Positions 10,028-15,114 of a stretch of 64,000 nt of DNA are shown here, in pieces. The first letter of the stretch is position 1. Every line of letters begins with the position of its first letter. The stretch spans positions 223,100 through 287,099 of the forward strand of contig JAPPBY010000033.1 in the NCBI GenBank assembly GCA_026702615.1, in the 5' to 3' direction. Source of the DNA: Chloroflexota bacterium (lineage in GTDB: Bacteria; Chloroflexota; Dehalococcoidia; Tepidiformales; Tepidiformaceae). Below the pieces are notes generated by a model. That model saw only the letters and a list, made by a program, of their open reading frames with translations. It did no database searches and had not been told where the DNA came from. Both the position numbers and the translations under genes were made by a program.

Positions 10028-10462
10028 ATGGGAGCACCGACGGTTGAGGACTACACCGCCCTGCGACAGGTGGCGGAGCGCTACGTGGATGCGGTCAACC
10101 GCTTCGACCCGGAGGCCTGGGGCTCGACCTGGGCGCCGGACGGGCAGTGGATCACGAGCACCACGCGCACGGGCCGCGAGGAGGTCGTGGCCGACTGGAC
10201 GCGGATCATGGCGAGCATCCCGAACGTCTACATGCACGTGTACTCGGGCGTCATCGACGACGTGACGGGCGACACGGCCACGGGTCGCTGGTATATGGGC
10301 GAGTTCCTGAACCGCGAGGCGGGCCGCACGATGAACTCGCTCTGCTACTTCGATACGTACACGCGCATCGACGGGCAGTGGTACATCCAGACGCGGCGCC
10401 TGGAGGCGCTGTACCGCGGCCCGGCGGACCTGAGCGGAGACTGGGGCAAGCTCTCGATGTGA
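10028..10462 (+). CDS. SnoaL/NTF2-like domain protein
   Basis: The protein has 144 aa. It opens with 'LRQVAERYVDAVNRFDPEAW', the 'WAPDGQWIT' strand and a final 'DGQWYIQTRRL' strand, the typical cone-shaped NTF2/SnoaL_4 layout. Members include polyketide cyclases, ring-hydroxylase beta-like subunits, isomerases and dehydratases. The substrate is unknown. The start has GAGGAGG at about 7 nt, and a TAGGCT box about 25 bp upstream could be its -10. It is divergent from the dienelactone hydrolase gene and is followed 39 bp later by the HTH-anchored protein gene, which has its own promoter-like box. Confidence 0.85.
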   Translation: MGAPTVEDYTALRQVAERYVDAVNRFDPEAWGSTWAPDGQWITSTTRTGREEVVADWTRIMASIPNVYMHVYSGVIDDVTGDTATGRWYMGEFLNREAGRTMNSLCYFDTYTRIDGQWYIQTRRLEALYRGPADLSGDWGKLSM

Positions 10463-10488: not shown

Positions 10489-10494
10489 TAGAAT
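10489..10494 (+). promoter_or_regulatory. TAGAAT -10 box for a leaderless start at 10502
   Basis: TAGAAT matches the sigma70 -10 consensus at five of six positions. It lies 7 nt before the ATG at 10502, and there is no Shine-Dalgarno sequence between them. Transcription would begin at or next to the A of the ATG, giving a leaderless mRNA. No convincing -35 is visible. Confidence 0.5.
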
Positions 10495-10501
10495 CGATCC
10501 C

Positions 10502-12316
10502 ATGGCCGAAGGGGAGCAACCCAGGGATCTCCGCCCGACGGAGGGCGCGGACGCGACCTCGCGGCTGCTCGAGGAGTTGCTGGCAGAGGGGAAGCCGGTC
10601 GCGGAGATTGCGGTGCGGCTCGGCATCAGCGTTCCCGATGCACACGCGCGCATCAGGGGTGTCCCGCCGGGCCGGGACATGGAGGCGGGAGGGCTGCCGC
10701 CCCTGCCACCGAGCCTTGCGCAGCAGGGTCAGCCCGGGGGCGGCGAGGGACGCACCCCTCTCGCTTCGGGAGGGGGTGGTGGAGGGCCGGAGCCGAGACG
10801 GCCGAGCGCCCCGGAGCCGGGACGGGGCCTCTCGCGGCGGGCGTTCCTGGGTCTGGCGGCGGCAGGGATCGCGGGGCTGGCCACGGGAGGAACGTTCCTG
10901 GCGATGCGCGGGGGCGAGGAAGAGGACGACATCGTGCGTCCACCGCGACCCATCCCGGTTCCGCCCACGCTCACGCCCGTGCCGCCAGCGCTCGCGGCGC
11001 TGCAGCCGGCGACGGGCATCTTCAAGGAGCTGACCCTTGAGCCGGGGCAGCCGCTGACCGAGGACCACGGCATCTTCTTCCTGCGGACGCGGGGCGAAGG
11101 GGCGGGGAGCGTGACGGGCTGGCAGGTCGCCGAGCCGGGCGGCGACCCGCCCGTCTACAAGGCGGGCGCGGGCAGGCGGTTCATTGCAACGACGAACGCG
11201 CTCCACGAGCGGACAACGGGGCGATCGTGGACGTGGCCGGAGGATCGCCTGCGGCTGCTCGGCTTCTCCGATTACGGAGCGCTCTTCGAGGTAGTGGAAG
11301 AGGAGCTGGGGCCGCACCTGATCAAGCGGGCGCGGTACGTGCTCACGAACGGACGGCTGGAGGAACGGGCGGAGTTCGAGCTGACGGGGACGCTCCTTCC
11401 CTCCATTCCACCGTTCTTCGACCCCATCGGGCGGCGAGTGTTCCTGGCGCTCCAGCAGCCACAGGAGTACCCCTCGCTGTTCATGCTGGACGGGGCCACG
11501 GGATGGGTAACAAGCGTGTTCTCGCCCCAGCGGCAGTCGACCCTCCAGCGGATCCTGTTCCACGCGACAACGCCGGCGAGCGATGGGGAGTCGTTCCTGC
11601 TGCCGTTTTCCTACTGGCCCACCCGGCCTCCGCTCACGCTGGGGTACGGGATTTTCGCGACCTTTGTGGCGCGTCTCGGCTGGGCGGGCGATCATCAGGG
11701 GATGACACGCGTGCGGGTGGACCGCGCGTTTGTCTCCCCGGACGGGTCGCTGGCAGCAGGTGAACGCGTCCTGGCGGTCCCAGGGACCGATCCACCCCTG
11801 TTCGAGGAGACGAGTACGGTGCTGGTAATCGACGGAACGACGGGGCGGAACCTTTTCCGTGTCCGGTCGGCCAGACTCAACTACGGCGACGAGCTCGGCG
11901 GCGCCCGCTGGCTCGCCGACTCATCGGGGCTGGTGATGCAGACGAAGATTGGGGGAAGGGTGGGGTACAGCTTCGTGAGCAGGGACGGATCGCGGCTGGA
12001 GCCGCTTCCCGATCCGCCGGGGCCTTCCGGCGAGTGGTTCCAGCACCCAGACATGCGGGGCGCCGCGCCATCGCCTGACGATCCGTCGCTGATCGCGTTC
12101 GGGCGGACGGATGTCTACGACCGCGCATCCGGCCGCTGGATGGGCATGAACCCAACGGGGGCGGCTCCGGCGCACGTTGGGCCGTGGAGCGGCGACGGGA
12201 GCAACGAAGTGGTGCTGGCCCTTCCGCACCAGCCCCACCGCATGCTCCCCTTGCTGGCGGACCTTGACGAGACCCGCATCGAGCACAACCTTCCCACGGA
12301 AGGTGACGATGCGTAA
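10502..12316 (+). CDS. Membrane-anchored protein: putative N-terminal HTH, Tat/TM segment, large extracytoplasmic domain
   Basis: The protein has 604 aa. Residues ~15-55 read like a small HTH ('GKPVAEIAVRLGISVPDAHA'). A Gly/Pro-rich linker leads to 'LSRRAFLGLAAAGIAG' at ~112, which is both a Tat-like twin-arginine motif and a single hydrophobic span. An acidic and proline-rich stalk follows, then ~430 residues with repeating 'D..TG' strand-turn blocks ('MLDGATGWV', 'VIDGTTGRN', 'VYDRASGRW'), suggestive of a beta-propeller. The layout resembles membrane-bound one-component regulators, but it could be a Tat-exported protein with an unusual N-terminus. The stop overlaps the next gene by 8 bp. 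No family recognised. Confidence 0.75.
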   Translation: MAEGEQPRDLRPTEGADATSRLLEELLAEGKPVAEIAVRLGISVPDAHARIRGVPPGRDMEAGGLPPLPPSLAQQGQPGGGEGRTPLASGGGGGGPEPRRPSAPEPGRGLSRRAFLGLAAAGIAGLATGGTFLAMRGGEEEDDIVRPPRPIPVPPTLTPVPPALAALQPATGIFKELTLEPGQPLTEDHGIFFLRTRGEGAGSVTGWQVAEPGGDPPVYKAGAGRRFIATTNALHERTTGRSWTWPEDRLRLLGFSDYGALFEVVEEELGPHLIKRARYVLTNGRLEERAEFELTGTLLPSIPPFFDPIGRRVFLALQQPQEYPSLFMLDGATGWVTSVFSPQRQSTLQRILFHATTPASDGESFLLPFSYWPTRPPLTLGYGIFATFVARLGWAGDHQGMTRVRVDRAFVSPDGSLAAGERVLAVPGTDPPLFEETSTVLVIDGTTGRNLFRVRSARLNYGDELGGARWLADSSGLVMQTKIGGRVGYSFVSRDGSRLEPLPDPPGPSGEWFQHPDMRGAAPSPDDPSLIAFGRTDVYDRASGRWMGMNPTGAAPAHVGPWSGDGSNEVVLALPHQPHRMLPLLADLDETRIEHNLPTEGDDA

Positions 12317-12974
12317 CGACCAACCGACCGGCCCCCACCGCGCGTGGAGCTGGTTGAAGCGGCGGCTGCCCTTCCTGCTGGTGACCGTAAGCCCGCTGGC
12401 GACGGTACCGCTTGCCGCCCTGCTGCTGTTTACGGCGGGGGGCGAGCACAGCGCGGAGGTGCTGGGCCTGCCGGAGAACGACCTCTGCAAGTTCGACGGG
12501 TTCATCGCCCAGAAGTGCTACTACTACTTCGACTTCTGGCGGACCGGGCTGCTGCTGGCGGTGCCGGGCGCTCTGAACCTGCTGGTCCTGCTCTGGTTCC
12601 TCAACCGCAACGGCTACGTGCGGGTAGCCGCGGTGGTAGCGCTCACGCTCGGGCTGGTGCGGACGCTCATCGTGCCGTTGGCGACCGTCGCCATCTCCCA
12701 GATCGCCGTCGTGAACGACGGCGGGCTGTTCCTGCGGGTCGAGGTCGGAGCGACGGGCGTCGTGACCGACATCACCTCGCCCACGGAGGGGACGGCGATC
12801 CGGAGGATCCTCGTGGCGGCCTGGGTCGGCGGCGCCATCTTCTGGGGGATCACGGTGTTGGTGTGGCGGGCGTACGAGCCGCTGATGGCGCGCTTCTGGC
12901 GCAACCTCGACCCGCCGGGAGGACCGCGCCTCGACGCACCGAAGCGCTGGACCGGCTTCCTGACGCGGCGCTAG
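12309..12974 (+). CDS. Four-helix integral membrane protein, tandem paralog 1
   Basis: The protein has 221 aa, starting at the ATG inside the end of the previous gene, so it is translationally coupled to it. Four hydrophobic segments lie at ~24-46, ~77-98, ~103-128 and ~163-185. The hallmark is 'YYYFDFWRTGLLL' leading into TM2, followed by 'PGALNLLVLLWFLNRNGYV', and a C-terminal 'RFWRNLDPP' to 'RWTGFLTRR' tail. The same motifs recur in the next three genes. It is the most divergent copy in the first extracellular loop, where it has two Cys ('DLCKFDGFIAQKCYY'). The family is not one I recognise. Confidence 0.85.
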   Translation: MRNDQPTGPHRAWSWLKRRLPFLLVTVSPLATVPLAALLLFTAGGEHSAEVLGLPENDLCKFDGFIAQKCYYYFDFWRTGLLLAVPGALNLLVLLWFLNRNGYVRVAAVVALTLGLVRTLIVPLATVAISQIAVVNDGGLFLRVEVGATGVVTDITSPTEGTAIRRILVAAWVGGAIFWGITVLVWRAYEPLMARFWRNLDPPGGPRLDAPKRWTGFLTRR

Positions 12975-12992
12975 CGGGCTCCGGGCGAGCAC

Positions 12993-13646
12993 GTGGTGGA
13001 CGGTGCAGCGGTGATCGGGAGCCTCCGGAGCCGGCTAGGGACGCGATCTCCGTTCGAGTGGCTCCAGGTAGCGCCGGCGGTGACCCTGCCGCTGAGCGCC
13101 CTGTTGATCTTTACCGTCGGCGGCACCCTCGATGCGCAGGCGCTGGGACTGGTCGAGGTGGAGTGGACGCGGGAAAACCGCCAGCTCGACCGGACGCACT
13201 ACTTCTACTACGACTTCTGGGTCACCTGGGCGGTGCTGACCGTGCCGGGGGTGGTGAACCTGCCCGTCGCCTGGTGGTTGCGCCACGAGCTGACCTACGT
13301 GCGGATCGCGGCAGTGCTCGCACTAACGCTCGCCCTGCTGCGCACGTTCGTCGTGCCGGTGGCCTCCGTCCTCTGGCTGACGGGCGATCTGATGCGCGAG
13401 GACGGACTCATCCTCCGCATCCCCATCGGGGAGGCGGGCGCATCCTCGGCCCCCTCGCCGTCGTTCGCGACGCTGAGCATCCTGATGACGGCGTGGATGG
13501 GCGGACTGGGGATGTGGGTGCTCACACTCGTGATCTGGCAGGGGTACGAGCCACTCATGTCGCGCTTCGTCCCACATCTCGCGCCGCCCCGCGAACGCTC
13601 CCAGGGGGAACCGGGGCGCTGGGGCGGCTTCTTCCAGAGGCGGTAG
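12993..13646 (+). CDS. Four-helix integral membrane protein, tandem paralog 2
   Basis: The protein has 217 aa with a GTG start. It has the same plan as its neighbours: short basic N-terminus, TM1 'APAVTLPLSALLIFTVGG', loop, 'HYFYYDFWVTWAVLTVPG' into TM2, TM3 'VRIAAVLALTLALLRTFVVP', an exposed beta-rich loop, TM4 and the tail 'RFVPHLAPP' to 'RWGGFFQRR'. It begins 18 bp after paralog 1. No catalytic residues are obvious. The conserved YYxDFW and the C-terminal WGGFF-x-RR suggest a packed oligomer or a cytoplasmic partner-binding tail; that is inference. Confidence 0.85.
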   Translation: MVDGAAVIGSLRSRLGTRSPFEWLQVAPAVTLPLSALLIFTVGGTLDAQALGLVEVEWTRENRQLDRTHYFYYDFWVTWAVLTVPGVVNLPVAWWLRHELTYVRIAAVLALTLALLRTFVVPVASVLWLTGDLMREDGLILRIPIGEAGASSAPSPSFATLSILMTAWMGGLGMWVLTLVIWQGYEPLMSRFVPHLAPPRERSQGEPGRWGGFFQRR

Positions 13647-13652
13647 GGGACT

Positions 13653-13680
13653 GGTGATCGGTGGTCGGTGATCGGTGGTC
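13653..13680. repeat. Perfect 2 x 14-bp tandem direct repeat
   Basis: The unit GGTGATCGGTGGTC occurs twice without a gap, followed by a further partial GGT. It sits between membrane paralogs 2 and 3, ending 15 bp before the TAGACT box of paralog 3. It could be a pair of direct operator half-sites or a simple intergenic repeat left by slippage. Confidence 0.7.
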
Positions 13681-13695
13681 GGTCCTCCACCCCGC

Positions 13696-13701
13696 TAGAC
13701 T
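13696..13701 (+). promoter_or_regulatory. TAGACT -10 box for a leaderless start at 13708
   Basis: TAGACT lies 6 nt before the ATG at 13708, with no Shine-Dalgarno sequence in between. This is the same spacing as at 10489 and 14434, so the third paralog probably has its own leaderless transcript. Confidence 0.45.
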
Positions 13702-13707
13702 GCCGGC

Positions 13708-14415
13708 ATGGGAACGACTCCCTCTCCATCTGCCCCGGACGACTCAGGCGCCTTCGGCGTGATCGAGAGGGCGTGGCGCCGTATGGGGAGGTACTCGCCG
13801 CTGGCGTGGCTGGTGGTGACGCCGGTCGTGACAGCGCCCCTGACCGCCGTGCTCGTGTTCGGCTTCGCGCAAGAGCTCAGCGCGAGGGAGCTGGGGCTGC
13901 CCGTCTGGCGAAACGAGCTGATCCCGGCCACGCTCCACTACTTCGATTTCTGGCTGACCGCGCTGCTGCTGATCGGGCCGGGGCTGGTCCTGAACCTGCT
14001 GGTCGTGTTGTGGTTCTTCCAGCGCAACGGGTACCTGCGGGTGGCGGCGGCTCTTGCCCTTGTGCTGGCGCTGGTGCGGACCGTGGGCGTCCTGTTCCTG
14101 TTCTTCGCGATCGCGCAGTCCGACCTGATCATCCACGACGGGCAACTGCTGATGCGCATCGAGGTGGAGCGAACGGGTTTCCTGGCGCTTGAGCCTCGAG
14201 CATCGACGCGGGAGGCACTGGTTCGCCTGCCTCTGATGATGTGGTTGTTCGGAGCGTTCGCGTGGGGACCGAGCGTCCTGGCCTGGGGGCTCTTCAACCT
14301 CGGGATGGAACGATTCCTGCCCCACCTGAAGCCCCCGCAAGGGCGGCGATCCGGGGAGCCGCAGGGCTGGGGCGGCTTCTTCGAGCGGCGCCAGCGCTCC
14401 TCGGACATGGCGTAG
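13708..14415 (+). CDS. Four-helix integral membrane protein, tandem paralog 3
   Basis: The protein has 235 aa. It has a longer Ser/Pro-rich N-terminus than the other copies, then TM1 'TPVVTAPLTAVLVFGFAQEL', the block 'LHYFDFWLTALLLIGPG', 'LNLLVVLWFFQRNGYLRVA', the conserved loop 'SDLIIHDGQLLMRIEVE', TM4 and the tail 'RFLPHLKPP' to 'GWGGFFERR'. It is most like paralog 4, with which it shares the 'HDG.LLMR' loop and 'RFLPHLKPPQ'. It is preceded by the 14-bp direct repeat and a leaderless-type -10 box. Confidence 0.85.
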   Translation: MGTTPSPSAPDDSGAFGVIERAWRRMGRYSPLAWLVVTPVVTAPLTAVLVFGFAQELSARELGLPVWRNELIPATLHYFDFWLTALLLIGPGLVLNLLVVLWFFQRNGYLRVAAALALVLALVRTVGVLFLFFAIAQSDLIIHDGQLLMRIEVERTGFLALEPRASTREALVRLPLMMWLFGAFAWGPSVLAWGLFNLGMERFLPHLKPPQGRRSGEPQGWGGFFERRQRSSDMA

Positions 14416-14433
14416 GTCGCTCATTCGCGGGGC

Positions 14434-14439
14434 TAGAAT
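14434..14439 (+). promoter_or_regulatory. TAGAAT -10 box for a leaderless GTG start at 14446
   Basis: TAGAAT is 6 nt before the GTG at 14446. No ribosome-binding sequence fits in that space. It is the third occurrence of this arrangement in the 10.5-14.5 kb cluster. Confidence 0.5.
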
Positions 14440-14445
14440 CCGGCC

Positions 14446-15114
14446 GTGCACGGCGAACGGGGAACGGAACCGACGGGAGCGCTGAGGAAGGTGCTCGCCG
14501 GGCTGGGCAGGCGCTCGCCGTTTCTGTGGCTGGTGCTGACGCCGCTCCTGACCGCACCCCTGAGCCTCGCACTGATCTACGGGTTCGCCGAGGAGCTCGA
14601 CGCACGTTCGCTGGGCCTTCCCACCACAAGGATGGAAGCGAACCTGCAGGCGACCCTCTACTACTACGACTTCTGGCCGACCTGGCTGCTGCTGACGATC
14701 GCGGGCCTGCCCAACCTGCTGGTAGCCCTGTGGTTCCTGCACCGCAGCGGCTACGTGAGGGTGGCGGCGGGGGCGGCGCTCGTGGTGGCGGTGCTTCGGA
14801 CCTTCGTCGTGCTGTGGGTGTTCTTCGCCACCTCGCAGACGAATGTAATCTCCCACGACGGCGAGCTGCTGATGCGCGTCGCGCTGGAGGCGAAGGGCTA
14901 TCTCGCGAGCGTAGGCGACCACTCGCCCGGGTTCGCCAAGATGCGCATGCTGCTGACGTTGTGGCTCTACGGCGCCTACACGTGGGTGGCATCCCTGGCG
15001 CTCTGGCCGCTGTGGAACCTCGTGATGGACCGCTTCCTGCCGCACCTCAAGCCGCCCCAGAAGCGGAAGCCCGGGGAACCGAGGACCTGGGGGAGCTTTC
15101 TCGAGCGGCGCTAG
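14446..15114 (+). CDS. Four-helix integral membrane protein, tandem paralog 4
   Basis: The protein has 222 aa with a GTG start. TM1 is 'TPLLTAPLSLALIYGFAEEL', the signature is 'LYYYDFWPTWLLLTIAG', followed by 'NLLVALWFLHRSGYVRVA', a 'THDG/SHDGELLMRVALEA'-type loop, TM4 and the tail 'RFLPHLKPPQ' to 'TWGSFLERR'. It closes the five-gene plus-strand cluster. Its TAG stop shares the palindrome CTAG with the stop of the convergent alcohol dehydrogenase gene. The function is unknown; four diverged copies kept side by side suggest subunits of one membrane assembly or dosage of a sensor/channel. Confidence 0.85.
   Translation: MHGERGTEPTGALRKVLAGLGRRSPFLWLVLTPLLTAPLSLALIYGFAEELDARSLGLPTTRMEANLQATLYYYDFWPTWLLLTIAGLPNLLVALWFLHRSGYVRVAAGAALVVAVLRTFVVLWVFFATSQTNVISHDGELLMRVALEAKGYLASVGDHSPGFAKMRMLLTLWLYGAYTWVASLALWPLWNLVMDRFLPHLKPPQKRKPGEPRTWGSFLERR

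Follow-up and report, generated by a model that had tools for sequence, protein, structure and literature searches.

A predicted membrane-tethered regulator with an outer beta-propeller and its tandem four-span neighbours in Chloroflexota: possible co-components of a one-component system

FecR is reportedly a regulator with a single membrane span that depends on twin-arginine translocation (Tat) and keeps its anchor uncleaved. A second group, the transmembrane transcription regulators (TTRs), which are CadC/ToxR-like one-component regulators, combines an inside DNA-binding domain, one span and an outside sensor in one chain, and the main text of the survey describing them names Chloroflexota for hybrid TTRs (PMC10269533). 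In co-component systems such as VtrA/VtrC, ToxR/ToxS and TcpP/TcpH, a tethered helix-turn-helix (HTH) protein is joined by a partner from a downstream, often overlapping gene, as reported for the VtrA/VtrC type (PMC9214523). We describe a locus reminiscent of both TTRs and co-component systems, with a predicted HTH held at the membrane, a predicted propeller outside and a candidate partner gene that overlaps the first. It lies on contig JAPPBY010000033.1 of a Chloroflexota bacterium (class Dehalococcoidia), within a window of 64,000 nucleotides, by which we mean the whole stretch of DNA analysed, and consists of a gene for a 604-residue protein followed by four tandem genes for small membrane proteins. 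Tentatively, and with a little less than even confidence, we read this locus as a membrane-tethered one-component regulator with four-span membrane co-components; the best reading of the four-span set is that it was recently recruited and is expanding.

The gene cluster and its distribution in the genus

The five open reading frames (ORFs), all on the forward strand, span 10502-15114, exactly as a previous sequence-only reading of this DNA had placed them. The gene for the 604-residue protein (10502-12316) is followed by copy 1 (12309-12974, 221 residues), copy 2 (12993-13646, 217 residues, with a GTG start 18 bases past copy 1), copy 3 (13708-14415, 235 residues, ATG start) and copy 4 (14446-15114, 222 residues, GTG start), the last being a lineage-specific duplicate. 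The claim that the small proteins, of 217-235 residues, are copies built on one plan also holds. They can be aligned end to end with 41-43% identity to copy 1, identity to copy 4 is 54, 43 and 40% for the other three, and copy 4 as query retrieves the others at E values of 7e-67 to 8e-39, well beyond chance. A genome-wide search of the source genome, a draft of 2.87 Mb in 38 contigs, found no further copies, all four matches lying at the locus. All five are genuine genes on which purifying selection acts, with pairwise dN/dS values inside orthologous groups of the small genes of 0.09-0.37; three comparisons involving G001_4 gave 0.69-0.80 and are not between clear orthologues.

The proposed coupling of copy 1 to the large gene fits an 8-base overlap between the stop of the latter and the copy 1 ATG, with alternative copy 1 starts further upstream in the same frame. 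The same overlap is present in five of the eight genus genomes that have both genes (G000, G001, G003, G004 and G006, the last on condition that translation begins at the second of two GTG codons). Among the nine genus genomes, G000 to G008, the small family is present in all, with 4, 4, 4, 4, 4, 1, 3, 4 and 2 copies, respectively (30 genes), and the gene for the 604-residue protein in eight, being split across two contigs in G002. Every genome that has the large gene carries two to four small genes in tandem behind it (a tandem order thus found in 8/9), and the genome without it has one. This linkage persists even where the large protein has fallen to 59% identity. Within the genus, then, multiple copies always accompany the large gene (8/8); in other genera, no small gene lies near the relatives of the large protein.

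In a tree of the 30 small proteins, copies 1, 2 and 3 group by position (main forks 100/99, 83/89 and 86/89, with several supports under 95 and G001_4 loosely placed), so that, as far as the tree goes, these copies are orthologous by position. Fourth copies cluster with the copy 2 group in G002 and G007 but with the copy 3 group in G000, G001, G003 and G004, indicating that a fourth copy arose at least twice.

Predicted architecture of the two protein types

The structure model of the 604-residue protein contains the helices of a predicted cytoplasmic HTH (about residues 14-55), a disordered linker, an RR (Tat-like) motif with one span (about residues 110-136) and a large predicted outer beta-propeller (about residues 163-598), with low confidence around the span. 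A single hydrophobic segment lies near residue 115, and SRRAFLG stands directly before the span at about residue 111. An RRx[FLVIM] motif ahead of the span is found in 41/46 alignment rows (32/33 of the genus type and 9/13 others), and the source genome encodes TatC (E 5e-56). In Foldseek searches the outer domain matched the fold of solved propellers. This predicted anatomy of HTH, span and outer propeller agrees with the membrane sensor that had been proposed from sequence. Both the model and relatives of the protein support an N-terminal HTH, a single span and a large domain outside; its own matches to HTH and TAT models fall below the curated cut-offs. Among 50 relatives, about 20 have weak HTH matches and 12 match the TAT-anchor model UCR_Fe-S_N (E<=0.1); alignment A3 of the large protein comprises P0001, 35 of the 36 proteins found and 14 locus proteins. 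No part of the protein has diverged less than its HTH: in five pairwise comparisons of four closely related genomes, dN there is 0-0.022 vs a dS of 0.09-0.23, although only 42 codons are compared.

A paralogue on another contig of the same genome (L085:9402-11438) has a clear LuxR-type HTH (GerE, E 2e-15), one span without RR, a propeller-like domain and a C-terminal SH3_3 domain. Long proteins of this kind, a group that has no Pfam name of its own, are the form that relatives of the 604-residue protein take outside the genus, where they occur in 10 of the 27 other searched genomes of the same taxonomic family and in 0/24 genomes of the class's other families.

The small proteins have no Pfam or NCBIfam family match (DUF6404 and DUF6332 reach 8.8 and 14.2 bits vs curated cut-offs of 27.6 and 25), and Foldseek returned no solved or viral structural relative of the small-protein model. 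The family is thus unrecognised, as the sequence-only reading had it. That reading also gave each copy four hydrophobic helices. The model of copy 1 (pLDDT 76.8), built on alignment A2 of 67 rows (the four proteins of the window and 63 of 79 retrieved ones), has four membrane-length helices in the order TM1, two strands, TM2, TM3, two strands and a long TM4; hydropathy gives three or four spans per copy. Several motifs needed correction. The one before helix 2 is conserved, its invariant form being Y-[FY]-DFW rather than Y-[YF]-x-DFW, and conserved aromatic residues lie at the predicted membrane edge of this helix. NLLV.LWF is found in three of the four copies, with NLPVAWWL in copy 2, and GYVRVA in two, with TYVRIA in copy 2 and GYLRVA in copy 3. 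The C-terminal W..F..RR tail is invariant as claimed, and D-F-W, W186, M.RF and PP are likewise invariant in all four copies.

Mean net charges across the small family are +2.8 for the N end, -3.1 for loop 1, +1.7 for loop 2, -2.5 for loop 3 and +4.1 for the C end. By the positive-inside rule, this pattern predicts that both ends are inside and the two long acidic loops outside, on the same side where the propeller would be. Loop 1 has two cysteines in 30 of the 67 rows, copy 1 included, none in 37 and never one; the same all-or-none distribution is seen in distant rows (two in 18 and none in four of 22). The simplest reading of these counts is that the pair would form an extracellular disulphide, which copy 1 has retained and copies 2-4 have lost.

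Promoter-like sequences and members of the small family beyond the genus

Predicted leaderless-type -10 elements on the forward strand precede three of the five genes: TAGAAT (10489-10494) is 7 bases ahead of the large gene's ATG, TAGACT (13696-13701) 6 bases ahead of the copy 3 ATG, and TAGAAT (14434-14439) 6 bases ahead of the copy 4 GTG. A spacing of 6-7 bases before starts fits the TANNNT, about 12 bases upstream, that a study of leaderless genes gives as their hallmark (PMC3160421). The element before the large gene is kept in all five genomes in which its start region was read (G000, G001, G003, G004 and G007), the others being at a contig edge (G002), unmatched by the pattern (G006 and G008) or without the gene (G005). 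TAGACT precedes copy 3 in five of the seven genomes that have this copy and is absent from G002 and G007, where copy 3 overlaps copy 2, and TAGAAT or TAGACT precedes five of the six fourth copies, the case in G001 being unclear. These three elements are three of the six TAGAHT sequences on both strands of the 64 kb, against about 0.3 expected by chance, a count that is post hoc since motif and spacing were picked after their sighting here. Overall these sequences suggest leaderless mRNAs in the genus. The presence of TAGAMT 6-7 bases before three start codons led us to reject a single five-gene operon. The five-gene cluster of the sequence-only reading probably comprises several transcription units, likely at least three, with the large gene and copies 1 and 2 in one, copy 3 in a second and copy 4 in a third.

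Just upstream of the copy 3 promoter lies a direct repeat in which GGTGATCGGTGGTC occurs twice (13653-13682, forward strand), a possible operator. It is found nowhere else in the window (its two matches overlap each other), and similar stretches are present in G003 and G004, with a weaker one in G001. No operator shared by the three promoters was seen by eye, no formal motif search having been made.

A small family confined to the genus was at one stage suggested, as only 10 of 60 relatives matched, one of them at 20.8 bits; this is ruled out by distant matches across the class. Specifically, the 67-row profile matches 15 of 393 class genomes at E<=0.01, including a 60-bit match, although two of these rest on weak matches (G054, with stops within the frame, and G260). 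A protein search from one distant copy retrieved 23 proteins, 21 of which (two TPR fusions being left out) were aligned with one locus protein as A4. This distant alignment matches the genus profile over 182 columns with 99.5% probability (E 8e-23) in a profile comparison, and the distant profile in turn matches 20/393 class genomes, nine being those of the genus, vs 3/400 genomes drawn from the phylum, all three of the same class. Two of the 23 proteins are labelled as belonging to other phyla (Krumholzibacteria and Gemmatimonadota), which are unchecked labels of metagenome-assembled genomes. The two fused members, P0139 and P0141, carry C-terminal TPR repeats, indicating that the C end of this family is able to carry a protein-binding module. 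Two others, P0133 and P0136, each lie on a 3,207-base contig, perhaps one and the same, and may be a tandem pair in a distant branch.

We read 13 distant loci in 12 genomes and each has one four-span gene of the small family. In one of them (L119:8047-10267, in G112) the four-span gene is followed by a 77-residue two-span gene and then by a 364-residue PD40 propeller (E 7e-39) that has an RR and a lipobox-like (lipoprotein-like) start. In another (L118) it is followed by a PI-PLC-C1 gene of the secreted phospholipase type (E 1e-124).

Competing readings and comparison with described systems

For the favoured reading we infer the partnership, as well as DNA binding and Tat export of the 604-residue protein, and several observations weigh against it. 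The four-span family predates the partnership, as indicated by solo loci without a homologue of the large protein. None of the 13 distant loci has such a homologue, although in five of them (L082, L118, L122, L157 and L158) the contig ends within 2 kb upstream of the four-span gene. Three matches to the A3 profile at these loci score 12.7-13.8 bits vs 380-889 bits for the main control members. A search of the 12 whole genomes yielded a full-length relative of the large protein only in G031, on another contig, the other matches covering one end (the HTH or SH3 side) and none being on the small-gene contig. Conversely, nine of the ten genomes outside the genus with a relative of the large protein have no small-family match, the tenth being G031. 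The view that the small family is always tied to the large gene thus fails, as these 13 loci and one of the nine genus genomes are without it. The latter, G005, keeps one copy 1 orthologue. Nine related genomes are also few, and the single absence could be chance. Moreover, the gene overlap is not seen in G002 and G007 (gap 25 bases) or in G008 (gap 5 bases). As for the large protein itself, its HTH match is below the Pfam cut-off and the recognition helix, VPDAHARI, includes an acidic residue, so that DNA binding may be weak or lost; Foldseek TM-scores of the whole model are low, at 0.14-0.33 by query length among the matches listed. Finally, the PD40 propeller beside a distant copy is only suggestive of a partnership and could well be chance, since G112 holds seven PD40 ORFs in 2 Mb and such adjacency would arise by chance at about 0.7% per locus, or about 9% over 13, by a rough estimate.

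Three other accounts were weighed against these data. Possible, though somewhat doubtful, is that the small proteins are effectors, an old solo envelope family (a stabiliser, or a lipid- or solute-handling protein) that became duplicated, and that the HTH-propeller protein is a local regulator that senses the envelope and sets the amount of each copy. That the small family lives alone elsewhere keeps this account close behind the favoured one, since distant members without a regulator suggest that the family works alone, as does the single copy in G005; copies 3 and 4 with promoters of their own, and the repeat before copy 3, are as expected for regulated targets, and the phospholipase-type neighbour of a distant copy fits as well. 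However, copy 1 overlaps the regulator gene, so the two are probably produced together instead of copy 1 being switched as a target, and the three promoters have no shared operator visible by eye. A further account, which we regard as unlikely, takes the HTH to be vestigial and the locus to encode a structural or enzymatic complex, in which a Tat-exported propeller serves as scaffold or binding subunit for hetero-oligomeric four-span subunits (a channel, transporter or electron-transfer assembly). The weak HTH score and acidic recognition-helix residue would fit, as would the maintenance of the paralogues as distinct orthologous types, the helix 2 aromatics at the predicted membrane edge and a putative Tat route, which is typical for folded domains. 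It is countered by the low divergence of the HTH relative to the rest of the protein and by the small protein having no solved-fold match; we recognised no enzyme partner among the genes of the cluster and saw no cofactor motif, without a formal search for one. We found no support here for the channel that the sequence-only reading had offered as one possibility.

Very unlikely, in our judgement, is that the small genes and the large gene are only neighbours with unrelated jobs, which have stayed together because little evolutionary time has passed and because they are transcribed together. The linkage is indeed confined to one genus, and another flank is equally stable: a SnoaL-like gene (SnoaL_4, E 1e-19; window positions 10028-10462), immediately upstream of the large gene, is retained in all eight of the nine genus genomes that are readable on that side, including G005, where the single copy 1 lies between it and a gene for a PMT_2-type membrane protein of 777 residues (L071:6123-8456). 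In contrast, linkage of the small and large genes in all eight genomes down to the identity given above, the gene overlap in five and the presence of more than one small copy only where the large gene is present are not what unrelated neighbours would be expected to show.

Under the favoured reading of a regulator with membrane co-components, the outer propeller would sense something outside the cell and the cytoplasmic HTH would act on transcription, the protein being inserted via Tat as an uncleaved anchor, as its RR motif suggests. The tandem four-span proteins would serve as its membrane co-components, with their outer loops meeting the propeller beside the membrane. Copy 1 may then be the core partner, and copies 2-4 variants through which ligand choice or assembly is tuned, and copies 3 and 4, given their own putative promoters, would be the first candidate targets of the regulator. 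A more specific version, which we consider distinctly unlikely, has a Tat-inserted HTH-propeller receptor capped in the membrane by a hetero-oligomer of four-span subunits of claudin-like topology, whose repeated tandem duplication diversifies receptor specificity; if this were true, it would be a bacterial signalling assembly of a new kind, in which the subunit set rather than the receptor evolves the input range. The locus brings together two uncatalogued things, a class-wide Chloroflexota four-span family and HTH-propeller membrane regulators with Tat-like anchors, and a limited text search of the literature found nothing on the combination of HTH, propeller and Tat anchor in Chloroflexota. 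If the partnership is real, one-component regulators can gain membrane partners by recruiting, and then multiplying, an old solo protein. These proteins also provide a testable set for the question of whether Tat inserts DNA-binding membrane regulators.

Compared with described systems, the 604-residue protein resembles FecR in that a cytoplasmic regulatory domain precedes an internal RR motif and a single span, the RR being directly before the span and TatC being encoded in the genome; the domain in FecR is reportedly of the anti-sigma type and its partner a TonB receptor, whereas here an HTH and a propeller are predicted. Claudin/PMP22 and tetraspanin-like proteins have four spans with both ends inside, and claudins carry the motif W-GLW-C-C. 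The small proteins share with them the predicted topology, strands in both outer loops and, in copy 1, the loop 1 cysteine pair. However, loop 1 reads GLPxxDLC...C without the claudin tryptophans or the W-GLW-C-C motif, there is no Pfam claudin match at E<=10, and a claudin fold is not among the Foldseek or VIA matches listed for the small-protein model.

The closest likenesses remain those to TTRs and co-component systems. As in TTRs, the span lies between the predicted HTH and the outer domain in one chain, but the 604-residue protein differs in its LuxR/sigma-r4-like HTH, RR (Tat-like) anchor and predicted beta-propeller sensor, and the main text of the TTR survey has no mention of LuxR, Chloroflexi, propeller, WD40 or twin-arginine (PMC10269533). 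The gene order, overlapping or with a gap of 5-25 bases, is that of VtrA/VtrC. The HTH class differs from that of co-component regulators, and the partner there is periplasmic and mostly a lipocalin-like sensor (PMC9214523), whereas here up to four tandem versions of a predicted four-span membrane protein are the candidate partners. Next to a candidate four-span partner family that has no Pfam or NCBIfam model, the 604-residue regulator would be a variant of the known TTR-type regulators.

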